A DNA stretch of 64,000 nt from Tropicibacter alexandrii. GTDB taxonomy: Bacteria; Pseudomonadota; Alphaproteobacteria; Rhodobacterales; Rhodobacteraceae. A program made the position numbers and the translations under genes. Numbering within the stretch: the stretch's first letter is position 1; each line of letters starts with the position of its first letter. The notes under the pieces are model-generated. The model worked only from the letters and a program-made list of their open reading frames with translations. It was not told the origin of the DNA and searched no databases. This document shows positions 5,509 through 62,572 of the stretch, piece after piece. Location of the stretch: NCBI RefSeq assembly GCF_003667315.2, contig NZ_RCTZ02000015.1, positions 1-64,000 on the forward strand, given 5' to 3'.

Positions 5509-6845
5509 TGGACGGAACGCTGATCGGCCTCGTGGCCTTTGCCGCCCTGATCGTCCTGCTGGGCGCGCGCGTGCCCATCGCCTTTGCGCTGGCCGGGGTG
5601 GCGACGCTGGGCACCTTCGTGATGTTCGCCTTCCGCACCGGGGCCTTCAACCCGGACCGGGCGATCCGGCCCACCGCGTCGATGGTGTTTTCCAACAGCT
5701 TCGACCTGATCCACAGCTACGACCTGTCGATGATCCCGCTTTTCGTTGCGCTGGGACACATCGCCTACCGGGCCGAGATCACCACCCGCATCTACTACGC
5801 CGCGCGGGTCTGGCTGTCTGCCATTCCCGGTGGCGTCGCCATGGCCAGCGTGATGGGCTGCGGCGGGTTCTCGGCGATCACCGGATCGTCCATCGCCTGC
5901 GCCTCGACCATGGGGCGGATCTGCACCCCCGAGATGCTGAACATGGGCTATGACAAGCGTCTTGCCACCGCCTCCGTCGCCGCCGGAGGGACGCTGGGCA
6001 GCCTGATCCCGCCCTCGGTGCTGTTCATCATCTACGGCATCTTCACCGAGACCTCGATCTCGCAGCTGTTCCTTGCCGGTATCCTGCCAGGGCTGATCTC
6101 GCTACTGGGGTTTTTGCTGGTGATCTGGCTTTGGGTGCGGCGCGATCCGTCCGCCGCGCCGACCCGCCCCGATGACCTGACGACCCGCCAGCGCCTGCAG
6201 GCAGCGCTGGATGCGTGGCCCGCCGCGCTGCTGTTCGTGATCATCGTCGGCGGCATCTATGGCGGCATCTTCACCGCGACCGAAGCCGCCGCCGTCTGTG
6301 TCTCGGCCACCTTGCTGATCGGCTTTGCCCAGCGGCGGCTGACCGTCGCTGCGGTGATCGAGTCGCTGCGGGAAACCGTCATTCAGACCACCTCGATCTT
6401 CATCATCGCTGCCGGGGCCAAGATCTTTGTCGCGTTCATCGCGCTGACCGGCGTGGCGGGCGACATCGTCGCGGCGGTTCAGGCCGCCGATCTGAACGTG
6501 GTCTTGCTGATGCTGGCCATCGCCGCAATCTACCTTGCGCTGGGGATGTTCCTCGACCCGATCGGGATCATGGTGCTGACCCTGCCGCTGCTGGTGCCGC
6601 TGGTCGAAGGCTATGGCCTCGACCTGATCTGGTTCGGCGTGGTGGTCATCAAGCTGCTGGAAATCGGCCTGATCACCCCGCCCGTCGGCCTGAACGTCTT
6701 CGTCATTTCGTCCGTCGTCGGCAAGGAAGTCCCCATCGACCGCATCTTTTCCGGCATCCTGCGGTTCCTGTCGGTGGACGTGATCGTGCTGGCCCTCATC
6801 ATGGCCTTCCCGATACTGTCGCTGCTGATCCCGAATTCGATGTGA
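5508..6845 (+). CDS. dctM: TRAP transporter large permease (DctM family)
   Basis: This 445-residue, very hydrophobic protein has about twelve membrane segments. It starts with MDGTLIGLVAFAALIVLLGA and contains the family's conserved inner loops, for example GGTLGSLIPPSVLFIIYGI and FLDPIGIMVLTLPLLVPL. It is the ion-coupled channel subunit of the importer. The frame is open further upstream, but the ATG at 5508, overlapping the DctQ stop, gives the correct family N-terminus. The IclR gene begins six bases after its stop. Confidence 0.93.
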   Translation: MDGTLIGLVAFAALIVLLGARVPIAFALAGVATLGTFVMFAFRTGAFNPDRAIRPTASMVFSNSFDLIHSYDLSMIPLFVALGHIAYRAEITTRIYYAARVWLSAIPGGVAMASVMGCGGFSAITGSSIACASTMGRICTPEMLNMGYDKRLATASVAAGGTLGSLIPPSVLFIIYGIFTETSISQLFLAGILPGLISLLGFLLVIWLWVRRDPSAAPTRPDDLTTRQRLQAALDAWPAALLFVIIVGGIYGGIFTATEAAAVCVSATLLIGFAQRRLTVAAVIESLRETVIQTTSIFIIAAGAKIFVAFIALTGVAGDIVAAVQAADLNVVLLMLAIAAIYLALGMFLDPIGIMVLTLPLLVPLVEGYGLDLIWFGVVVIKLLEIGLITPPVGLNVFVISSVVGKEVPIDRIFSGILRFLSVDVIVLALIMAFPILSLLIPNSM

Positions 6846-6850
6846 GGCAG

Positions 6851-7639
6851 ATGATGCAAGACCACCCCGACGCCAAGGACCGCCGCTTTGCCACCACGTT
6901 GGCCCGTGGGCTGGCGGTCCTGCGCGCCTTTCGCGCCTCTGATGACGGGCTTGGCAATGCCGACATCGCCGAGCGCACCGGCCTGCCGAAAAGCACGGTC
7001 TCGCGGCTGACCTTCACGCTGCAAAGCCTTGGGTACCTGACCCATGCCCGGCGCCATGACCGCTATCGGCCCGGGCCCGCGCTGCTGGCGCTGGGGAACG
7101 TGGCGCAGGCATCGATTTCCTTCGTCGACCTGTCCGCGCCGATCATGCAACGGCTGGCGGATGAAACCGGGACGCTGTCGCTGCTGCTGGTGCGCGACGA
7201 TACCAAGCTGCTGATCGTGCGCACATGGCGACCGCGCGGGGTGTCGTCGCTGTGGCTGGAGGTCGGGCACAGGCTGCCCTTCGTCGGGACCTCGTCCGGC
7301 CATGCCATGCTGGCCGCGATGTCCGACGACCAGTTCGCCACGCTGTCCGATGGCATGGTCGGTGCCTCTGCTGCGCGACAGGCGGCCTATGGCCAGCTGA
7401 TCACCCGTGGCTTCGCCATCACCCCGCCCGATCAGTATTACGCCGCCAATATCCATGCCGTTTCAAAGCCCTTCTTTGCCCGCGACCTTGCAGAGCCGGT
7501 CGTGTTCACCTGCGGGGCCATGCCGCAGGACCTGTCCGTCGAACGGATGGAAACCGAGGTCGGGCCGAAACTGAACGACGCCGTGAAAGAATTGGAACGC
7601 ATCATGGGGCAGCCCGCCTCGATCACGATGCGCACCTGA
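6851..7639 (+). CDS. IclR-family transcriptional regulator
   Basis: The protein has 262 residues. An N-terminal winged helix (residues about 15-75, with ADIAERTGLPKSTVSRLTFTL as the recognition region) is joined to an IclR effector domain. These regulators usually bind a small organic acid and repress or activate a neighbouring catabolic operon. The gene sits between the transporter and the enzymes of one operon, with six bases to dctM and ten to the hydratase/dehydrogenase. A second in-frame ATG at 6854 is equally possible. The likely target is the TTCCAC-ATA-GTGGAA palindrome in front of the first gene, which would make it autoregulatory. Confidence 0.9.
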   Translation: MMQDHPDAKDRRFATTLARGLAVLRAFRASDDGLGNADIAERTGLPKSTVSRLTFTLQSLGYLTHARRHDRYRPGPALLALGNVAQASISFVDLSAPIMQRLADETGTLSLLLVRDDTKLLIVRTWRPRGVSSLWLEVGHRLPFVGTSSGHAMLAAMSDDQFATLSDGMVGASAARQAAYGQLITRGFAITPPDQYYAANIHAVSKPFFARDLAEPVVFTCGAMPQDLSVERMETEVGPKLNDAVKELERIMGQPASITMRT

Positions 7640-7649
7640 AAGGAGACCC

Positions 7650-9716
7650 ATGTCAGACCCAGTCCGCTATGAACGCGAGGGCGAGATTGCCCTGATCGTC
7701 ATCGCCAACCCGCCGGTCAACGCGCTGGGACAGGCGGTGCGGCAAGGCCTGTGGGGGGCCATCGACCGTTTTGCGCAGGACGATGCGCGCATCGCCGTCA
7801 TCCTCGGCGAGGGCAAACTGTTCCTTGGCGGCGCGGATATATCCGAGTTCGGCAAGCCGATGACGGAACCCTTCCTGCCCGATCTGTGCACCCATATCGA
7901 AGGCTGCACCAAACCCGTTGTCGCCGCCATTCATGGCCCGGCGCTGGGGGGCGGCTGCGAGGTCGCCTTGGGCGCGCATTACCGGCTGGCCATGCAGGGC
8001 GCGCGGCTGGGCTTTCCCGAGGTGCATCTCGGCCTGATCCCCGGCGCGGGTGGCTCGCAACGCATGCCGCGTCTGACCGGCATTGGCCCCGCCATCGACA
8101 TGATGGCGGCTGGCGGGTCGGTCACCGCCGAAAAGGCGCTGGCCATCGGCCTTGTGGACCGTGTCGCGACCGGCGAAGTGCGCGCCGCAGGGATCGCCTA
8201 TGCGCAGGACCTGCTGGAGGACGCAGCACCTGTGCGCCGTACCGGCGACCTGCCCCGCCCCGCCTTCGACGCGGCGACCTTTGACGAGGCCCGCGCGCTC
8301 TGGACGAAGAAGGCGCGCGGCGAGGTTGCACCGCTTGTGGCCATCGACGCCGTCGAGGTCGCCACAAGGATGGACCTGGACGCGGGCATCGCCGAGGAAC
8401 GCCGCCTGTTCTTCAAGCTGATGGAGACGCCGCAGCGCGCAGGCATGATCCATGCCTTCTTCAACGACCGCAGGGTGTCGAAACTGCCCGAACTGGCGGG
8501 CATTGCCCCCCGTGAGGTGAGCCACGTCGGCGTGATCGGCGGCGGCACCATGGGCGCGGGCATCGCCACGGCCTGTCTGCTGGCCGGCCTGACCGTGACC
8601 TTGGTGGAGCGCGATGACCAAGCGGCTGACAAGGCGCGCGCCACGATCACCGGCAATCTCGACGCCGCCGTGAAACGTGGCAAGCTCGACGACCGGGATA
8701 CCGCGCTGGCCCGTCTGCGCACCGTGACCGACTATGCCGAGCTGCGCGACGCGGATCTCGCCATCGAAGCGGTGTTCGAGGATATGGACGTGAAGAAGGA
8801 CGTGTTCGCCCGGCTCGACGCGGTCCTGAAGCCCGGTGCCATCCTCGCCACCAACACCTCTTATCTGGATGTGAACGAGATCGCGCAGGCCACCGGCCGC
8901 TCCGGCGACGTGATCGGGCTGCACTTCTTCAGCCCTGCGCATGTCATGAAGCTGCTCGAAGTCGTCGTTGCCGACGCCACCGCGCCGGACGTCACCGCCA
9001 CCGCCTTTGCGCTGGCAAAGCGGCTGGGCAAGACGGCGGTCAAGGCCGGTGTCTGCGATGGCTTCATCGGCAACCGCATCCTCGCCACCTATCGCGGCGC
9101 GGCGGATCGGATGATCCTCGACGGGGCCTCGCCATGGGAGATCGACGCCGCGATCAAGGCGTTCGGCCTGCCGATGGGCCCGTTCGAGATGGGCGATCTG
9201 GCGGGGCTGGACATCGGATTTTTGACGCGCCAGCGCAAGGCGGCCACGCGCGACCCGCGCGACGTGGTGCCGACATGGGCCGACGACATGGTTCACAAGG
9301 GCTGGCTGGGGCAGAAGACCGGCACGGGCTACTATGTCTACGAGGGCCGCAAGGGCATCCCGAACGAGGCCATCCTACCCCTGATCGAGGCCGCGCGCGG
9401 CGACCGCCCGCAGCAGACCTTCACGCCCGAAGACATCCAGCGCCGCTACATGGCCGCCATGGTCAACGAGGCCGCCAAGGTCGTGGGTGACGGCATCGCC
9501 GCGCGCCCGCTCGATGTGGATGTGACGCTGCTTTACGGCTACGGCTTCCCGCGCTGGCGCGGCGGACCGATGCACTGGGCCGACACGGTCGGCCTGCCCG
9601 CCCTGCTCGATGACATCAAGTCATGGGCACAAACCGATCCGTATTTCTGGACGCCCGCACCGCTGTTGGAGCAGCTGGTGGCCGAGGGGCGTCAATTCGC
9701 CGATCTCAACACATAA
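7650..9716 (+). CDS. Enoyl-CoA hydratase/3-hydroxyacyl-CoA dehydrogenase fusion (FadJ/PimF type)
   Basis: This 688-residue bifunctional enzyme covers two steps of beta-oxidation. The N-terminal crotonase domain (to about 185) shows the oxyanion motifs GGADISEFG and HGPALGGGCEVA and the acidic residues in FPEVHLGLIPGAGG. The 3-hydroxyacyl-CoA dehydrogenase domain begins at about 290 with the NAD fold GVIGGGTMGAGIA and carries the catalytic His in GLHFFSPAHVMKLLEVV. It has the length and order of PimF of the pimelate operon and of FadJ. AAAGGAGA precedes the start. It is followed by two acyl-CoA dehydrogenases, a thioesterase and a ligase; a thiolase is not in the window. Confidence 0.92.
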   Translation: MSDPVRYEREGEIALIVIANPPVNALGQAVRQGLWGAIDRFAQDDARIAVILGEGKLFLGGADISEFGKPMTEPFLPDLCTHIEGCTKPVVAAIHGPALGGGCEVALGAHYRLAMQGARLGFPEVHLGLIPGAGGSQRMPRLTGIGPAIDMMAAGGSVTAEKALAIGLVDRVATGEVRAAGIAYAQDLLEDAAPVRRTGDLPRPAFDAATFDEARALWTKKARGEVAPLVAIDAVEVATRMDLDAGIAEERRLFFKLMETPQRAGMIHAFFNDRRVSKLPELAGIAPREVSHVGVIGGGTMGAGIATACLLAGLTVTLVERDDQAADKARATITGNLDAAVKRGKLDDRDTALARLRTVTDYAELRDADLAIEAVFEDMDVKKDVFARLDAVLKPGAILATNTSYLDVNEIAQATGRSGDVIGLHFFSPAHVMKLLEVVVADATAPDVTATAFALAKRLGKTAVKAGVCDGFIGNRILATYRGAADRMILDGASPWEIDAAIKAFGLPMGPFEMGDLAGLDIGFLTRQRKAATRDPRDVVPTWADDMVHKGWLGQKTGTGYYVYEGRKGIPNEAILPLIEAARGDRPQQTFTPEDIQRRYMAAMVNEAAKVVGDGIAARPLDVDVTLLYGYGFPRWRGGPMHWADTVGLPALLDDIKSWAQTDPYFWTPAPLLEQLVAEGRQFADLNT

Positions 9717-38505: not shown

Positions 38506-38525
<20 letters not shown>

Positions 38526-39657
38526 GGTCCTCGACCTGACGCGGCTCATCAGCCGCGCGGGTCGCCCCATGACCGGCGTGGATCGGGTCGAATACGCCTA
38601 TCTGGAGAACCTCCCCGATGTGTGGGGATTGGTGCGGACCTCGCTGGGCTATGTGTTGCTGGACCCTTCCGGGTGCCGTGCCTTGCGCGCCAAAATCCGC
38701 GACAATGTGTGGGGCGCGCCTGACTGGCTGTCGCGCAGGCTCGACCCGATGCGCGCAGGCGCCGAAGCCGATCTGCGCCGGTTGTGCGTGGCGCGCTGCC
38801 TGCCGGTCGGCCTGAAACGGATGCTGCGTCGGCACCTGCCGCGTGGCGTCACCTATGTGAATACCGGCCACACCAACCTGACCGACCGCGTTCTGCGCGC
38901 ATTGGGCGCGGTCGAGGCCCGCATCGCCGTGCTGATCCACGACACGATCCCGCTGGACCATCCCGAATTCCAACGCCCCGAAACGGTGGCGCGGTTTCGC
39001 ACCTTCCTGACCCGCGCCGCCGATCATGCCGATCTGCTGATCTGCAACTCCCGCCAGACCGAGGCCGACCTGCGCCGTCACGCACCGCAAGCCCGCGCCA
39101 CGGTCGTCGCGCCGTTGGGGGTGCCCATGCCTCAACCCGGCACCGCCCCGCACGGCCCGTGGACGACGCCGTATTTCGTGACGCTCGGCACCATCGAACC
39201 ACGCAAGAACCACGCCCTGCTGCTGGACCTCTGGCCGGAAATCGACGCCGACCTGCTGATCCTCGGACAGCGCGGTTGGGAAAACCATGACACTTTCGCC
39301 CGGCTCGACGCCAAGCCCGCACGCATCCACGAACTGAACGGCTTGCCCGACGATCAGGTCTTTGCTCTGCTGAAAGGCTCCGCCGGGCTGTTGTTTCCAA
39401 GTTTCGCCGAAGGCTATGGCCTGCCCCCGGTCGAGGCCGCCGCGCTGGGGGTGCCGGTTTTGTGCAACGATCTTCCCATCTATCGGGAGATATTGGGGAA
39501 TATACCCGTTTACGCAAACGTTTCGGATCGTTATCTTTGGCAATCAAAGATTATCGAACTGGCCCAGTGTCTTCGCGCAGGAAACAATAGCAGCCGCAAG
39601 AAATTCACGCCCCCCGATTGGGACGCGCATTTCAAGGCCGTGTTAACGCTGCTCTGA
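38506..39657 (+). CDS. Family 4-like glycosyltransferase (group 1)
   Basis: The protein has 383 residues with a GT-B fold. The C-terminal donor domain shows TLGTIEPRKNHALLLDLW, then LILGQRGWEN, then FAEGYGLPPVEAAALGVPVL, whose two Glu residues are the E-x7-E-type motif. N-terminal acceptor side VLIHDTIPLDHPEFQRPE is typical of mannosyl- or related transferases. The start at 38506 overlaps galE; a later ATG at 38569 would shorten the N-terminus and remove part of the first strand. It belongs to the polysaccharide operon. Confidence 0.87.
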
Positions 39658-39705: not shown

Positions 39706-40716
39706 TTGGGCGCATGGCAGTCATACCGTTTGCGGCTTCGGCGACGCCGCTGGCGTATTCGCGCCTTTCGCAAGCGTCGGGAACTCCGCCCGGTGACGAA
39801 CCGCACATCTGACATCAAACCCTCGGATTTGCTGGTCTTTTCCACCCAGCGCAACGAGGGTGTGCGCCTGCCCTACTTCCTCGATTACTACCGGGATATG
39901 GGGGTCAATCATTTCCTGATCGTGGACAATGATTCCACCGACGGCTCATTGGACTACCTGGCGCGACAGCCGGATGTCTCTGTCTGGTCAACGCAAGCCA
40001 GCTACAAACGGTCCCGTTTTGGCGTCGACTGGATGAACTGGCTGTTGATGAGATACGGCCACGGCCACTGGTGCCTGACCGTCGACCCGGACGAACTGTT
40101 CCTGTACCCGTTCTGCGACACGCGCCCCCTGCGCGCCCTGACCGACTGGCTGGATGCCTCCTCGATCAAGTCGTTCTCGGCAATGTTGCTGGACATGTAT
40201 CCCAAGGGCCGCATGGACCAGACGCCCTACATGCCCGGTCAGAACCCGCTGGAAATCGCGTCCTGGTTCGACAGCGGCAATTACACGATCCAGAAGAACC
40301 CCGAACTGGGCAACCTGTGGATACAGGGCGGCCCGCGCGCGCGGGTCTTCTTTGCGAACAAGCCGGAACTGGCGCCCGCGCTGAACAAGATCCCGTTGGT
40401 GCGCTGGGACCGGCGCTATGCCTATGTGTCCTCAACCCATAACCTGCTGCCACGCGGGCTGAATCTTGTTTACGACGAATGGGGCGGGGAAAAGGCCAGC
40501 GGCATCCTGCTGCACACGAAATTCCTGTCCACCTTTGCCGACAAAGCCGAAGAGGAACTGACCCGCGGACAGCATTACGGGGCCAGCCGGGAATACATCG
40601 CCTACGCAGATGCGGTGCAGGACAATCCGGACCTGTGGTGCAAGTGGTCCGAGAAATACATCAACTGGCGGCAACTCGAAATCCTCGGCCTGATGTCCAA
40701 GGGGAACTGGGCATGA
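39706..40716 (+). CDS. Glycosyltransferase of the Glyco_tranf_2_4/GT92-like type
   Basis: The protein has about 336 residues. Segments STQRNEGVRLPYFLDYYRDM, FLIVDNDSTDGSLDYL and LTVDPDELFLYPF give the nucleotide site and the DxD motif of this glycosyltransferase group. An Arg-rich N-terminus (RLRLRRRRWRIRAFRKRR) precedes the domain and may interact with the membrane. The longest frame starts with TTG at 39706 after AGAGGG; a GTG at 39793 near the domain edge is possible. It ends four bases into the next gene (ATGA). Confidence 0.8.
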   Translation: MGAWQSYRLRLRRRRWRIRAFRKRRELRPVTNRTSDIKPSDLLVFSTQRNEGVRLPYFLDYYRDMGVNHFLIVDNDSTDGSLDYLARQPDVSVWSTQASYKRSRFGVDWMNWLLMRYGHGHWCLTVDPDELFLYPFCDTRPLRALTDWLDASSIKSFSAMLLDMYPKGRMDQTPYMPGQNPLEIASWFDSGNYTIQKNPELGNLWIQGGPRARVFFANKPELAPALNKIPLVRWDRRYAYVSSTHNLLPRGLNLVYDEWGGEKASGILLHTKFLSTFADKAEEELTRGQHYGASREYIAYADAVQDNPDLWCKWSEKYINWRQLEILGLMSKGNWA

Positions 40717-42413
40717 CCGTCGGCATCGTCATGTTGGTCCATACGGCTTTGGGCCGGGCCGAGCAGGTCGCCCGGCATTGGGCGCGCGGCGGCTGCCCGG
40801 TGGTCATTCATGTCGACCGCAACGTGTCGCGCAAGACCTATGACGCCTTCGTTGCGCGCTTGCAGGACGAACCCTCGGTGCTGTTTTCCAAGCGGCATCG
40901 CTGCGAATGGGGCAGTTGGGGGCTGGTCGCCGCCTCTCAGGACGCATCCGAACTGATGCTGGAGCGCTTTGAAGAGGTGCGCCATGTCTACCTTGCCTCC
41001 GGGTCCTGCCTGCCGCTGCGCCCGGTCGAGGAACTGGTCGAATACCTCGCGCACCGCCCCCGCACCGACTTCATCGAAAGCGCCACGACAGCGGATGTGC
41101 CATGGACGGTGGGCGGGCTGGACCATGAGCGCTTCACCCTGCATTTCCCGTTTTCGTGGCGGCAAAACCGCTACCTGTTCGACAAGTTCGTCGAGTTGCA
41201 GCGCCTTGTCGGCTACAAACGGCGCATTCCCGGCGGAATCGTTCCGCATATGGGCAGCCAGTGGTGGTGCCTCACGCGCCAGACCCTGAGCGCAATCCTG
41301 CAAGACCCCGAACGCCCATCCTTCGACGCCTATTTTCGGCGGGTCTGGATTCCGGACGAAAGCTATTTCCAGACGCTCGCCCGGCTCTATTCGACCAAGA
41401 TCGAGAGCCGCTCGCTGACGCTGTCCAAGTTCGACTTTCAGGGCAAACCGCATATCTTCTACGACGATCACCTGCAATTGCTGCGCCGGTCCGACTGTTT
41501 CGTCGCGCGCAAGATATGGCCACATGCGGACCGCCTGTACGAAAGCTTTCTGACCGACCCGAACCGCGCCATGTCGCGGCAGGAACCCAACCCCGGCAAG
41601 ATCGACCGCATCTTTGCCAAGGCCGTCGACCGCCGGACCCGTGGCCGCCCCGGTCTGTTCATGCAATCCCGCTATCCCAACTATGGCTGGGAAAACGGGC
41701 TGACCGCCGGGAAATACTCGGTTTTTCAGGGCTTTTCCGAACTGTTCGAGGAATTCGAGGGATGGCTTGGCCGCGCCACCGGCGCGCAGGTCCACGGCCA
41801 TCTCTTTGCGCCTGAACGCGCGGAATTCGCCGGGGGCCAGACGGTTCTGAACGGCGCCCTGTCCGACAATGCCCTGCTGCGCGACGCCAACCCGTTGGCT
41901 TTTCTGACCAATCTGTTGTGGAACACGCGTGGCGAGCGGCAGTGTTTTCAATACGGGCCGCGCGACAACCCCAAGATCAACTGGCACATGTCGCGCGACC
42001 CCAATGCCCAGATCAGCGTGATCTCGGGCGCTTGGGCCGTGCCGCTGTTCAAGTCGAACGCCAATTTCGCCGACCTCCGCGCCACCGCCGCCAAGCTGCA
42101 AAAGATCGAAAGCCGGATGCTGGACGAATTGCGCAGCCCCGACGTGAAGGCACGCGTGCGCATCTGGACCATGGCCGAGTTCATCGAAAGCCCGATGGAA
42201 CCGCTTCAGGTCATCATCGACGAGATCGGCCAGAAATCCCTGCGCCGACTGGCCGAGGCGCCGAGGCTGGAAAACCTCAACGGATTTGGGCAATTCCTGC
42301 AAAACCTGAAGAATCAGGGCATGCACCCCTATCTCATGGGCGATTTCCCGGTTGACCCCGCCCCCAGAAACACGCGTTCTGGCCCTCGCAAACCCTATCT
42401 GATCAAGAAGTGA
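40713..42413 (+). CDS. GT14-like (core-2/I-branching) glycosyltransferase with extra C-terminal domain
   Basis: The protein has 566 residues. The first 280 match the beta-1,6-N-acetylglucosaminyltransferase-like family: HVYLASGSCLPLRPVEEL, then GSQWWCLTRQTLSAI and WIPDESYFQTLARLY. The remaining 280 form a domain found after this fold in Rhodobacterales (DUF5928-type by memory), with no known activity. It is a clear paralogue of the protein at 60032-61609, sharing the GSQWWC and WIPDE(S/T)xFQTL motifs. It is followed 11 bases later by a sulfotransferase, as the other copy is accompanied by one. Confidence 0.82.
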   Translation: MTVGIVMLVHTALGRAEQVARHWARGGCPVVIHVDRNVSRKTYDAFVARLQDEPSVLFSKRHRCEWGSWGLVAASQDASELMLERFEEVRHVYLASGSCLPLRPVEELVEYLAHRPRTDFIESATTADVPWTVGGLDHERFTLHFPFSWRQNRYLFDKFVELQRLVGYKRRIPGGIVPHMGSQWWCLTRQTLSAILQDPERPSFDAYFRRVWIPDESYFQTLARLYSTKIESRSLTLSKFDFQGKPHIFYDDHLQLLRRSDCFVARKIWPHADRLYESFLTDPNRAMSRQEPNPGKIDRIFAKAVDRRTRGRPGLFMQSRYPNYGWENGLTAGKYSVFQGFSELFEEFEGWLGRATGAQVHGHLFAPERAEFAGGQTVLNGALSDNALLRDANPLAFLTNLLWNTRGERQCFQYGPRDNPKINWHMSRDPNAQISVISGAWAVPLFKSNANFADLRATAAKLQKIESRMLDELRSPDVKARVRIWTMAEFIESPMEPLQVIIDEIGQKSLRRLAEAPRLENLNGFGQFLQNLKNQGMHPYLMGDFPVDPAPRNTRSGPRKPYLIKK

Positions 42414-42424
42414 TTGGCCGCTGA

Positions 42425-43855
42425 ATGTCCCATGGTTTCGACTGCTTCGTCGTCTTTGCCGAAATGCGCACCGGGTCGAATTTTCTCGAGGCGAACCTGA
42501 ACGCCTTTGACGGGATCACCTGCCATGGCGAGGCGTTCAACCCGCATTTCATCGGCTACCCGAATTCCGAAGACATCCTTGGCATCACCCTAGCGGAACG
42601 CGACCACGATCCGACGCGCCTGCTGGGCCAGATCCGCCATGCCACACCCGGCGGGATCGGCGGCTTTCGCTACTTTCACGACCACGACCCGCGCGTGCTG
42701 GATGCGCTGACCCGTGACCCGAAGGTCGCCAAGATCGTGCTGACCCGGAACCCCGCCGAAAGCTATGTCAGCTGGAAGATCGCCCGCGCCACCAACCAAT
42801 GGAAACTGACCAACGTCAAACGCCGGAAAGAGGCGCAGGCGCATTTCGACGCGCAGGAATTCGAGGACCATCTGGCGGCCTTGCAGACCTTTCAGGTCAT
42901 GCTGATGAACGCCCTGCAAAAGACCGCGCAGACCGCGTTCTATATCGATTACGACGACCTTCAGGACGTCGAGATCATGAACGGGCTGGCGCGCTGGCTG
43001 GGGGCGAAATCGCAGCTCGACAGCCTGAATACGGCGCTCAAGGTCCAGAACCCCGAACCGCTGTCGCAAAAGGTCGAGAACTTCTCCGAGATGGAGCGGG
43101 CCTTGGCGAGGATGGACCGCTTCAACCTGTCGCGCACCCCGAATTTCGAACCGCGCCGGGGGCCGGTCGTGCCGTCTTATGTGGCCGCCCCGCGCACTCC
43201 GCTTTTGTATATGCCGATCCGGTCGGGGCCGGAGGTGGCCGTGCAACGCTGGCTCTGCGCGCTCGACGATGTCGGCCAAAAGGACCTGCTTGGCGACTTT
43301 TCCCAAGGCACGCTGCGCGCTTGGAAAAAGGACAACCCCGGCCATCGCAGCTTTACCGTGATCCGGCACCCGCTGGCCCGCGCGCATGAGGCGTTCTGCA
43401 CCAAGATCCTGACCACCCGGCAGGGCAGCTTCAAGGGCATCCGCAAGACCCTGCGCCGCGCCCACAACCTGCCCATCCCCGAGGATGAACCGGGGTCGGA
43501 TTACGACGTGAACGCCCATCGCGAGGCGTTCACATCCTTCCTCGCATGGGTCAAGGCGAACCTGCAGGGGCAGACCGCCGTGCGGGTCGATGGACATTGG
43601 GCGACGCAGGCGCAGTGCATTCAGGGCATGGCGGAGTTCACCTTGCCCGACATGATCGTGCGCGAGGACGAGATGGCCAGCTACCTGCCTGCGCTGGCGA
43701 TGCAGGTCGGCCATGCCAGCCCGCCCGATCCGGCCAGCGTGCCGAATGCCGCGCCGTTTTCGCTGGCGGAAATCTATGATGACCAGATCGAGGCATTGGC
43801 GCGTGACGCCTATGCCCGTGACTACATCATGTTCGGGTTCGGGGATTGGGGCTGA
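42425..43855 (+). CDS. Two-domain sulfotransferase
   Basis: The protein has 476 residues. The N-terminal half (about 1-240) is a Stf0/NodH-like sulfotransferase: FAEMRTGSNFLEANLN is the 5'-phosphosulfate loop and IVLTRNPAESYVSWK the 3'-phosphate motif. The C-terminal half (about 255-476) repeats the plan with YMPIRSGPEVAVQRWL and FTVIRHPLARAHEAFCTKIL, the style of Sulfotransfer_2. The second 5' loop lacks the usual Lys, so it may be inactive or act on another acceptor. PAPS is the expected donor. It closes the glycosyltransferase operon, whose first gene cysQ would remove PAP. Confidence 0.82.
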   Translation: MSHGFDCFVVFAEMRTGSNFLEANLNAFDGITCHGEAFNPHFIGYPNSEDILGITLAERDHDPTRLLGQIRHATPGGIGGFRYFHDHDPRVLDALTRDPKVAKIVLTRNPAESYVSWKIARATNQWKLTNVKRRKEAQAHFDAQEFEDHLAALQTFQVMLMNALQKTAQTAFYIDYDDLQDVEIMNGLARWLGAKSQLDSLNTALKVQNPEPLSQKVENFSEMERALARMDRFNLSRTPNFEPRRGPVVPSYVAAPRTPLLYMPIRSGPEVAVQRWLCALDDVGQKDLLGDFSQGTLRAWKKDNPGHRSFTVIRHPLARAHEAFCTKILTTRQGSFKGIRKTLRRAHNLPIPEDEPGSDYDVNAHREAFTSFLAWVKANLQGQTAVRVDGHWATQAQCIQGMAEFTLPDMIVREDEMASYLPALAMQVGHASPPDPASVPNAAPFSLAEIYDDQIEALARDAYARDYIMFGFGDWG

Positions 43856-48600: not shown

Positions 48601-49308
48601 ATGACTTGGGAGGTCATCTTGACACTGCATTTTCGCCAGCCGCTGCCGACGGCAAAATTCGAAGCCTTGATCGAGGACGCTCTGCGCCCCGATCGCGCCC
48701 CGACCCCATATCGTGACACCTTCAAGCGCGTGCTTGACGTCACCCTCGTCCTCATGGCGGCCCTGCCGGTCCTGATGATGACCTTGGCCTTTGCCGCGGT
48801 GATCGCCCTTGACGGCAAGTCGCCCTTCTATCGTCAGGAACGCGTCGGCCGCAACGGCACGACCTTCTTCATGTGGAAGCTGCGCTCGATGGTGCCGAAC
48901 GCGGATCGCCTGCTGGATGCCTATCTGGCCGACAATCCCGCCGCCCGCGCCGAGTGGGACCGCGACCAAAAGCTGCGCCACGATCCGCGCATCACCCCGA
49001 TTGGCCACGTGATCCGCAAGACCTCGATCGACGAGCTGCCGCAGCTGTGGAACGTGCTGCGCGGGGACATGTCGCTGGTCGGTCCGCGTCCGATGATGCC
49101 CTGCCAGCAGGAGATCTATCCCGGCACCGCGTACTACGCGCTGCGCCCCGGCATCACGGGCTTCTGGCAGACTTCGGTCCGCAACGAAAGCAGCTTTGCC
49201 CAGCGCGCCGAGTTCGACGGGGATTACCTGCGCAAGCTGTCCTTTGGCACCGACCTGCGTATCCTGCTCAAGACCGTGCGCGTCGTGATCCGCGGCACTG
49301 GCTACTAA
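48601..49308 (+). CDS. Undecaprenyl-phosphate sugar phosphotransferase (ExoY-type bacterial sugar transferase)
   Basis: The protein has 235 residues. One membrane helix (VTLVLMAALPVLMMTLAFAAVIAL) precedes the polyprenyl-phosphate hexose-1-phosphate transferase domain, with FFMWKLRSMVPNAD, then KTSIDELPQLWNVLRGDMSL, VGPRP and ALRPGITGFWQ. It loads the first sugar onto the lipid carrier and so starts an exopolysaccharide or capsule repeat. The longest frame begins at the ATG at 48601; a TTG at 48619 just after GGGAGGT may be the real start. A strong terminator follows, so it is a single-gene unit. Confidence 0.92.
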   Translation: MTWEVILTLHFRQPLPTAKFEALIEDALRPDRAPTPYRDTFKRVLDVTLVLMAALPVLMMTLAFAAVIALDGKSPFYRQERVGRNGTTFFMWKLRSMVPNADRLLDAYLADNPAARAEWDRDQKLRHDPRITPIGHVIRKTSIDELPQLWNVLRGDMSLVGPRPMMPCQQEIYPGTAYYALRPGITGFWQTSVRNESSFAQRAEFDGDYLRKLSFGTDLRILLKTVRVVIRGTGY

Positions 49309-60031: not shown

Positions 60032-61609
60032 TCAATCGGCAAAGAGATGATCCAGCGCCACGATCTCGCGCGCCTTCTCCTCCGGCACGGTCAGGAATTG
60101 CGACACCGCCCGCGCGTTGATCTCGACCCCGTCGATCTCGCGCATGTGCAGGTGATTGTCGAAATCCGCATCCCGGATGCGGTCGCTCTCATGGACCATG
60201 TCATTGCGCACCGTCGGCAACAGCCGCATCAGCGTCTCATACGGGGTGCGGTCCCCGGCCAGCCCGACGCGCATGGCGTGGCCGATCAGGTAGTCGTCCG
60301 AGAACTGGCACTCGATCTCCAAGATCCGCGTCAAGGACCGGTCATTGCCGAAATCCTCCAACAGGTCGAGGTTCGCAGGGTCCATGCAGACCACCAGCCG
60401 GTCGGTGTCGTAATAATCGAACAACATCCGCATCAGCGCCCGCCGATGCCGGTGCCGCTTGCCCATCGTCGACTGGATGCCGCCCAGATCAGGCAGGAAA
60501 CAGCTTTCCTCGTTGAACAGGTACTCGATACACGGGATGTTGGTCATCGTGCGAATGCGATCCACCAACCGCTTGGCCACGTGCCATTTCTTGCACACCA
60601 CGATCAGCAATTCGCGTTCGCGCCCGAGCGAGCTTTCCTTTTCCCAGAACCGCGGGGCAAAGCGCCGCCCGATCCGGCCCTTGGTCGACAGGAACTTGTA
60701 CAGCGACCGCCCCTCGTTCGAGATCTGGAACTTCGTTCCGTCCGATGCGTATAGCACGCCCAGCCGCCGTTTCAGATCGGCCGCCTCGGGGCTGATCTTG
60801 CGCGCGAACAGGAAATCCTGAGACAGCAGCAAGTCATAGTGATCGTTGTAGAACGTCACCGGCAGGCCATAATCCGTGAACATCAGGAAGGTCAGCGTGC
60901 GCGACTGAATCTCATGCTCTGGCACCAGATGGCGCACCAAGGTCTGAAAGAACGTCTCGTCGGGAATCCATGTGGTCGCGAAGAACCGCATCACGTCGCG
61001 GCGCTGCTTGATGAAGTCGAGAATCCATTCGATCGTCCGCCGCCGCAGGCACCACCATTGGCTGCCGATCATCACCTCGATGTCCTGCGGGATCTCGCGG
61101 GTCAGGCCCAGCCGTTTCTGGATCTCGAACATCGCGTAAAACCGGCGTTTCTGCGTGCGTTCGTTGAACCAGTGGCGATAGATCAGCCGCTCTTCCTTCC
61201 AGCCGGTCTTGATCCAGTCGGACTGGAAATAGTCAAAGCTTTCAACATAGTCGCAATCGCGCCGGTCGAGGAACTCATGCGCGTATTCCGCCGACTTGAT
61301 CGCCATGCAATCGCCCGAGAGCATGTAGAAATGCGTGGCGCGCGGGAAGGCCTCGACCGCCGATTGCACCGCGTAGATCGTCGCCTCGACCAGCGACCAT
61401 TCCCCCCAGCCGCATTTGATGCGTTTATGGGCAAAGGTCACGTTGGGGTTGTCGTCCAGCGCGTTGCGGATCTTGCGATAGGCCTCGGGTTTGGCGCGCG
61501 CGTCGAAATGGATCGAAATGTAATCACCGACAGCCGTCAGGCTCTGCGCCTGCTTGATGATGGCGTCAGGGTCCTTATGACACAGCAGTATGAAGGCGAT
61601 TTTTGCCAT
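60032..61609 (-). CDS. GT14-like (core-2/I-branching) glycosyltransferase, second copy
   Basis: The protein has 525 residues. AFILLCHKDPDAIIKQAQSL begins the family domain; HFYMLSGDCMAIKSAEYAHE, GSQWWCLRRRTIEWILDFI and WIPDETFFQTLVRHLVP match the paralogue at 40713. The C-terminal 240 residues are a different unknown domain, with CKKWHVAKRLVDRIRTM and RIRDADFDNHLHMREIDG. It diverges from a sulfotransferase gene across 144 bp of AT-rich DNA. Both copies of this glycosyltransferase in the window therefore have a sulfotransferase neighbour. Confidence 0.8.
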   Translation of the reverse strand: MAKIAFILLCHKDPDAIIKQAQSLTAVGDYISIHFDARAKPEAYRKIRNALDDNPNVTFAHKRIKCGWGEWSLVEATIYAVQSAVEAFPRATHFYMLSGDCMAIKSAEYAHEFLDRRDCDYVESFDYFQSDWIKTGWKEERLIYRHWFNERTQKRRFYAMFEIQKRLGLTREIPQDIEVMIGSQWWCLRRRTIEWILDFIKQRRDVMRFFATTWIPDETFFQTLVRHLVPEHEIQSRTLTFLMFTDYGLPVTFYNDHYDLLLSQDFLFARKISPEAADLKRRLGVLYASDGTKFQISNEGRSLYKFLSTKGRIGRRFAPRFWEKESSLGRERELLIVVCKKWHVAKRLVDRIRTMTNIPCIEYLFNEESCFLPDLGGIQSTMGKRHRHRRALMRMLFDYYDTDRLVVCMDPANLDLLEDFGNDRSLTRILEIECQFSDDYLIGHAMRVGLAGDRTPYETLMRLLPTVRNDMVHESDRIRDADFDNHLHMREIDGVEINARAVSQFLTVPEEKAREIVALDHLFAD

Positions 61610-61753
61610 TCAGGAAACACGATCCCCAGAATTTTCCCGATTGTTTACCGTGATAAGCATGAACGAGCGTTGAATAAACCTGCTTTCTTTGGTTTTTTGT
61701 AACGAGTAAAGCGCCAAAAAGAACAAAGGCGCAGCAAGCCGGAGGCAACGGGC

Positions 61754-62572
61754 ATGGGTTTTCCAGGCACTTGGATGACCGAGAGTGAGAGTATGGTGTA
61801 TCGGGTCGTGCCGAAATGCGCCTGTTCGACCATCGGCCAGATCATGTATTACAGCGATCATGGCGAATTCTTCGACGGCGACATTCACGACGCCACGGGG
61901 GGCCTGCACAAGTGGGCGCGCGAGGAAAGCCAAGCCGCGATCAAGGCCAACGTCAAGACGCGCACCTCGTACACCTTCACCTGCGTGCGCAATCCCTACA
62001 CGCGCATCCTGTCATCCTTCTTCGACAAGATCTGCGGCATCCAGCGCAACGGCCGGCGCTATCGCGGCAACCTCGTGCCGCTTCTGATCCAGAAATACGG
62101 GATCGAGGTCGGCGGCGATGACGGCAAGCAGGAGTTCGACCAGATCCGCAGTTTCCGCCGATTCCTGCTGTTCACCCGCGACACCATCCGCTGGCGCCGC
62201 CCGATGGAGCCCGACATTCACTGGTCGGCCATGGCGGGCCATGTCTCGACCTTCATCGTCAATGGCGGGCGCTACAACAACATCTTCTGGACGGAGAAGT
62301 TCAACGAGGGCATGCAAAGCGTGCTCGACCATGTGAACACGCCCCAGACCATCGACTTGGCCAGCATCCCGCGCTTCAACGAATCCGAGGGGCACGGGCC
62401 GAAACGCGCCCACCCGGTCGAGGATTACTTTGACGACCTGTCGATGCACCTGATGAAGGAAATCTATCATCGGGATTTCGCGCTGTTCAAATACGACTTC
62501 GACGATCCGTCCAACAAGATGCCGATCGGCGAGATCGACTTGGACGAGGTCCACGCCAAGCTGGGCGATTAG
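61754..62572 (+). CDS. Sulfotransferase family 2 protein
   Basis: The protein has 272 residues. The 5'-phosphosulfate loop is RVVPKCACSTIGQIMYYSD and the 3'-phosphate motif FTCVRNPYTRILSSFFDKI, both as in carbohydrate sulfotransferases. No membrane segment is seen, so it acts in the cytoplasm with PAPS. GGAGGC lies before the ATG at 61754; a later ATG at 61793 is possible. It ends four bases into the convergent DUF2798 gene. Confidence 0.88.
   Translation: MGFPGTWMTESESMVYRVVPKCACSTIGQIMYYSDHGEFFDGDIHDATGGLHKWAREESQAAIKANVKTRTSYTFTCVRNPYTRILSSFFDKICGIQRNGRRYRGNLVPLLIQKYGIEVGGDDGKQEFDQIRSFRRFLLFTRDTIRWRRPMEPDIHWSAMAGHVSTFIVNGGRYNNIFWTEKFNEGMQSVLDHVNTPQTIDLASIPRFNESEGHGPKRAHPVEDYFDDLSMHLMKEIYHRDFALFKYDFDDPSNKMPIGEIDLDEVHAKLGD

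Follow-up and report, generated by a model that had tools for sequence, protein, structure and literature searches.

A predicted sulfotransferase fused to a probable pseudo-sulfotransferase in Rhodobacteraceae

In principle, a protein with two sulfotransferase-type halves can be read as an enzyme with two active sites or with one. For protein P0001 of Tropicibacter alexandrii, the second reading is probably correct: an active sulfotransferase (the N half) is fused to a pseudo-sulfotransferase (the C half) that is under purifying selection and kept as a non-catalytic module, likely partnered by a DUF5927 domain. One site is preferred over two because the position of the catalytic lysine in the C half is never basic, and the serine of its 3′-phosphate site is mostly gone. 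The protein offers a testable, family-wide case of a pseudo-sulfotransferase, in which live and dead sulfotransferases that differ in ancestry share one chain in most genera sampled, and predicts a single site to mutate.

Gene, distribution and the N-terminal half

The window, i.e. the whole stretch of 64,000 nucleotides that was analysed, is the first part of contig NZ_RCTZ02000015.1, and all positions without another locus refer to it. The open reading frame is exact, running from ATG at 42425 to the stop at 43855 on the + strand, and encodes 476 amino acids. Matches at E ≤ 0.001 are found in 248 of 295 Rhodobacteraceae genomes, and among the matches listed all span both halves; the fusion protein is near-core in this family, whose members are mostly marine. 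Named loci include those of Tropicibacter, Leisingera, Phaeobacter, Sulfitobacter and Roseovarius. Among 16 genomes that were re-examined, picked mainly for weak matches, several have just one half or a mere fragment. A draw of 385 genomes from across the class gave seven matches, namely five from the same family with both halves and two others with the N half only; both halves occur in none of the 380 drawn from outside the family. The match in Mameliella sp. MMSF_3455 (locus L116, 4001-6139) spans 2139 nt instead of the usual ~1425, which looks like an insertion.

Conservation was followed in two sets of relatives. Set A1 holds 38 diverse sequences, whose identity to the window protein can be as low as 31%; set A2 holds 74 named sequences and is rich in roseobacters. 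The four motif strings named in the preliminary description are all present: MRTGSNF (residues 14-20), TRNPAESYVSWK (107-118), PIRSGPEVAVQRWL (264-277) and IRHPLARAHEAF (313-324). Its further claim, that both halves possess a 5′-phosphosulfate loop and a 3′-phosphate motif, is borne out for the N half; the C half has these motifs only formally, since its lysine position carries no basic residue and the 3′-site serine is mostly lost.

The N half (residues 1-230; 42425..43114, +) is of the NodH/Stf0 type. It matches the solved LPS sulfotransferase NodH (pdb 9vki) with E 3.1e-7 by sequence (residues 7-151) and 2e-14 as a profile. In the full-length AlphaFold2 model, VIA aligns residues 3-233 with mycobacterial Stf0 (1tex_D; Z 12.9, 194 residues, 3.6 Å), and the 3-O-sulfotransferase 1zrh follows with Z 12.5. 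Pfam Sulfotransfer_3 (PF13469, cutoff 27) is missed by the window protein, which scores 14.7 bits over residues 12-44, and by the N half alone (16.5); the same family matches 14 of the 38 A1 relatives at E ≤ 0.01. A 2024 review (PMC11625862) lists as sulfotransferase hallmarks a lysine in the 5′ loop, a serine on the 3′-phosphate helix and the β-sheet architecture, and gives Arg in place of the loop lysine in Stf0 and R-x-G in NodH. In the loop MRTGSNF (42464..42484, +), R15, G17, S18 and N19 are invariant in both sets (38/38 and 74/74), as are R108 and S116 of the 3′-phosphate motif TRNPAESYVSWK (42743..42778, +). The combination R15/G17/R108/S116 is complete in every sequence of A1 (38/38) and A2 (74/74). 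The N half is therefore predicted to be a PAPS-dependent sulfotransferase domain that looks intact.

Ancestry, fold and lost residues of the C-terminal half

The C half (residues 257-476; 43193..43852, +) descends from a different family. Pfam Sulfotransfer_2 (PF03567) passes its cutoff here, with 26.4 bits against 22 (residues 306-472), and is matched by 70 of the 74 A2 members at E ≤ 0.01 and by 25 of 38 in the wider set A1. As a profile, the C half matches the intact tandem Sulfotransfer_2 protein of locus L096 (98%, 3.8e-14) and the intact Sulfotransfer_2 protein encoded at 61754 in the window (97%, 8.5e-11). A PDB sequence search with the C half alone gave nothing significant (best E 0.65, not a sulfotransferase).

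The full-length model, built from 74 sequences, has a mean pLDDT of 86.8, a pTM of 0.53 and pLDDT below 50 at residues 232-244, so that the relative placement of the two halves is uncertain. Since the VIA matches listed for this model covered the N half, residues 249-476 were modelled separately (pLDDT 95.8, pTM 0.91). The preliminary description depended on a sulfotransferase fold in this half, and such a fold was found: among the VIA matches listed, 50 of 50 are sulfotransferases, with Z from 8.4 down to 6.7. The best is a heparan sulfate 6-O-sulfotransferase (Z 8.4, 173 residues, 4.5 Å). Foldseek is weak, with a best E of 0.066, and its top 18 matches are sulfotransferases. Z-scores near 8 are middling by themselves, but they agree with Pfam and the profile comparison on descent from Sulfotransfer_2. 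These modest structural scores are what a chance likeness of motifs in an unrelated domain would have in its favour; set against the Pfam matches in nearly all A2 members, the profile probabilities and the uniform VIA result, an origin outside the sulfotransferases is very improbable.

The two halves are also not copies of each other. Internal duplication of one domain was ruled out by comparing the N and C profiles, which gave a probability of 19% over 49 columns. The initial view of two sulfotransferase halves in different styles holds on this point, the C half being of the Sulfotransfer_2 type and the N half of the NodH type.

Three intact Sulfotransfer_2 domains, namely that at 61754 in the window and both halves of the L096 tandem protein, served as reference for the catalytic residues. 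Their catalytic lysine falls on S267 of the window protein, their S-T pair on E270-V271 and their 3′-site serine on E322. The second 5′ loop, PIRSGPEVAVQRWL (43214..43255, +), had been described as an unusual loop of the 5′-phosphosulfate type; by this alignment it is not a standard one, and Pro269-Glu270 stand where the intact relatives have small or hydroxyl residues. No basic residue occurs at position 267 in either set (0/38 in A1, 0/74 in A2). In the second 3′-phosphate motif, IRHPLARAHEAF (43361..43396, +), R314 is mostly kept (73/74 in A2, 32/38 in A1), and position 322, Glu in the window protein, is Ser or Thr in only 5 of 38 A1 and 7 of 74 A2 sequences. H391, the histidine of an H-W motif, is present in 7/38 and 33/74, respectively. 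The motif [RK]266-x-G268 is found in 66 of 74 A2 members but in just 20 of 38 in A1, and several divergent members retain mere remnants of the C half.

The bifunctional alternative holds that both halves bind PAPS and sulfate different glycan positions, the C half by means of its R-x-G-P-E loop. It draws on the retention of [RK]266-x-G268 and R314 in close relatives, on the purifying selection described below, and on the fact that R-x-G is the loop type given for NodH in PMC11625862. The alignment of the catalytic lysine with S267 and the replacements at 269-270 argue against it, as does the erosion of R/K-x-G in A1; loop and 3′-site Ser/Thr are complete together in only 2 of 38 A1 and 6 of 74 A2 sequences, as compared with 38/38 and 74/74 for the N half. 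This alternative is unlikely. Retention of the loop and of R314 in close relatives does imply that a residual anion or nucleotide site in the C half is possible on sequence grounds. A regulatory sensor could be built on such a site, with PAP (or another anion) bound without catalysis and gating the N half. The near-invariance of R314 in close relatives and the preserved fold would suit it; the widespread loss of the 3′-site serine, the lack of R314 in 6 of 38 A1 sequences and the members with C-half remnants only do not, and the idea is judged improbable.

Selection on the protein was estimated from 12 pairs of relatives. dN/dS is 0.07-0.26 for the C half (11 pairs with finite dS) and 0.08-0.18 for the N half (11 of 12 pairs), values that are rough because many dS exceed 1. 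By these ratios, the C half is constrained by purifying selection. In A2, mean identity to the window protein is 0.668 for the N half and 0.585 for the C half. The preliminary description had left three options for the second loop, namely that it is inactive, regulatory or specific for another position; the missing lysine, the mostly lost serine and the lower conservation of the C half favour a catalytically inactive domain.

The segment between the two domains (FNLxRTPNFEPRRGP, residues 231-256; 43115..43192, +) outdoes both in conservation, with a mean identity of 0.826, despite being poorly modelled at low pLDDT. It may reach into a partner protein or into the active site.

Neighbouring genes and the DUF5927 domain

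Directly upstream lies a gene for a Branch-type glycosyltransferase with a C-terminal DUF5927 domain (40710..42413, +; PF02485 59.2 bits, PF19349 541.8 bits). It is preceded by genes for a GT2-family glycosyltransferase (Glyco_tranf_2_4; 39751..40716, +; PF13704 119.9 bits), which is a conserved neighbour by synteny and whose listed open reading frame begins at an in-frame TTG at 39706, and for a GT4-family glycosyltransferase (38506..39657, +; PF00534 49.1 bits). Across loci, the upstream order comprises the GT2 gene and often also GT4, galE and galU genes; downstream, on the opposite strand, are ptsN, hpf, lptB and lptA. Such galU, galE and glycosyltransferase neighbours may be common to several pathways. 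A sugar transferase of the WcaJ type, encoded ~4.7 kb downstream at 48601-49308 (Bac_transf, 196.7 bits), might initiate a polysaccharide pathway.

In all 80 named loci, the Branch/DUF5927 gene precedes the sulfotransferase gene by 2-43 nt. It also adjoins it in 35 of 40 loci chosen for spread or divergence; the five without a DUF5927 neighbour (L096-L100) are single-half matches. Of the 295 family genomes, counted without correction for relatedness, 244 have both sulfotransferase and DUF5927 and 45 have neither. Four have the sulfotransferase without DUF5927 (G133, G148, G176, G263), and two have DUF5927 without the sulfotransferase (G057, G236). Within the 244, the sulfotransferase matches in G074, G171, G178 and G248 are weak and partial; the presence of DUF5927 in genomes with such matches (e.g. 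G171 and G178) means that the pairing is not obligatory.

DUF5927 itself (41508..42407, +) is probably a degenerate NodH-type sulfotransferase by ancestry. This placement, new here, stems from profile comparisons and was not seen in database-wide searches; it offers an identity for DUF5927. In hhalign, a 24-member N-type profile matches DUF5927 with 93.5% and E 2.2e-7 (reverse 90.1%, 1.6e-6), and the alignment is in register at the GE-x-FNP and D-P-x-x-L-L regions. Controls for both of these diverse profiles, i.e. ten unrelated neighbour profiles each and the C half, reach E 0.078 or worse. The same comparison with a less diverse N profile gives E 7e-4; with profiles of close relatives only, the match falls to 24%, barely above the N-versus-C comparison. 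An HMM of only five stand-alone sulfotransferases from outside the locus detects 105 of the 113 DUF5927 sequences at 1e-3, as against Branch domains 0/115, GT2 proteins 0/113 and shuffled sequences 1/565, and a 24-member HMM finds 110/113 as against 2/565 shuffles. These counts use single-sequence E-values and are not independent, because the 113 sequences are related. At the aligned place in DUF5927, neither the R-x-G loop nor the 3′-site Arg is conserved among the sequences listed. None of 35 DUF5927 members has a Pfam sulfotransferase match at E ≤ 1, and a PDB profile search with DUF5927 returned no sulfotransferase.

A second Branch glycosyltransferase gene, with DUF5928 (−), adjoins a single-domain, intact Sulfotransfer_2 gene (61754-62572, +; 123 bits) in the window at 60032-62572. 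Of 30 loci, the window locus included, 29 have a homologue of the latter at 73-100% identity next to DUF5928. A sulfotransferase reading of DUF5928 found no support (profile against N2, E 0.07; against the C half, 0.49), and its likeness to DUF5927 is weak (15%, 165 columns).

Proposed function and relation to known systems

In the proposed mechanism, the protein would be a glycan (or glycolipid) sulfotransferase with a single active site. R15-T-G-S of the N half would bind the 5′-phosphosulfate of PAPS, with R108 and S116 binding the 3′-phosphate, and sulfate would be moved from PAPS onto a hydroxyl group of a sugar that the neighbouring glycosyltransferases assemble. An APS kinase is encoded in the organism's own genome, so PAPS is available in principle. 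The C half would be a former Sulfotransfer_2 enzyme that has kept its fold and lost the catalytic Lys, the loop S-T and the 3′-site Ser. Perhaps together with DUF5927, it may position the acceptor or dock a partner, for which the upstream Branch-type glycosyltransferase with DUF5927 is the likely candidate. Branch sugar and sulfate would then be attached by the pair to one and the same surface glycan; a sulfated, branched glycan of this kind is suggested as a near-core trait of the family. PAPS binding is a prediction, and the glycan acceptor, the docking and the coupling of branching to sulfation are inferred from operon and domain anatomy.

A more far-reaching version is tentative and rather doubtful. 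It takes the two genes as a unit that is near-core to Rhodobacteraceae and comprises three domains of sulfotransferase fold, one of them alive; the dead ones would form a heteromeric device for docking or for gauging the acceptor, so that one surface glycan common to the lineage would be sulfated and branched in a single coupled step.

Pairs of a pseudoenzyme and an active enzyme, in which a dead homologue is retained beside a live one, are a known arrangement. A literature search, with subscription journals and preprints outside its scope, found no fused pseudo-sulfotransferase, nothing on the window protein and no mention of DUF5927. Among the closest known systems, the NodH/LPS sulfotransferase (Sulfotransfer_3-like, 9vki) and mycobacterial Stf0 (1tex) are like the N half in the R-x-G loop, the 3′-site Arg and Ser, and the fold; both align to this half only, whereas the window protein adds a degenerate second half and a conserved linker. 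Carbohydrate sulfotransferases of the Sulfotransfer_2 family (PF03567) resemble the C half in Pfam, profile and fold comparisons; its best VIA matches include heparan sulfate 6-O- and 2-O-sulfotransferases. The C half lacks their catalytic Lys, loop S-T and 3′-site Ser.

The tandem protein of L096 also carries two sulfotransferase halves per chain, and by profile comparison its domains are closely related to the C half. It differs in that its halves belong to the same family, both have a P-x-x-K loop, and no DUF5927 gene adjoins it. This 676-residue protein is encoded at 5649-7676 (−) in family genome G162, and the Lys loops of its two Sulfotransfer_2 domains look intact. A different tandem arrangement is seen at L098 (6743-8243, +) in genome G074, where two genes for N-type (Sulfotransfer_3) sulfotransferases lie side by side.
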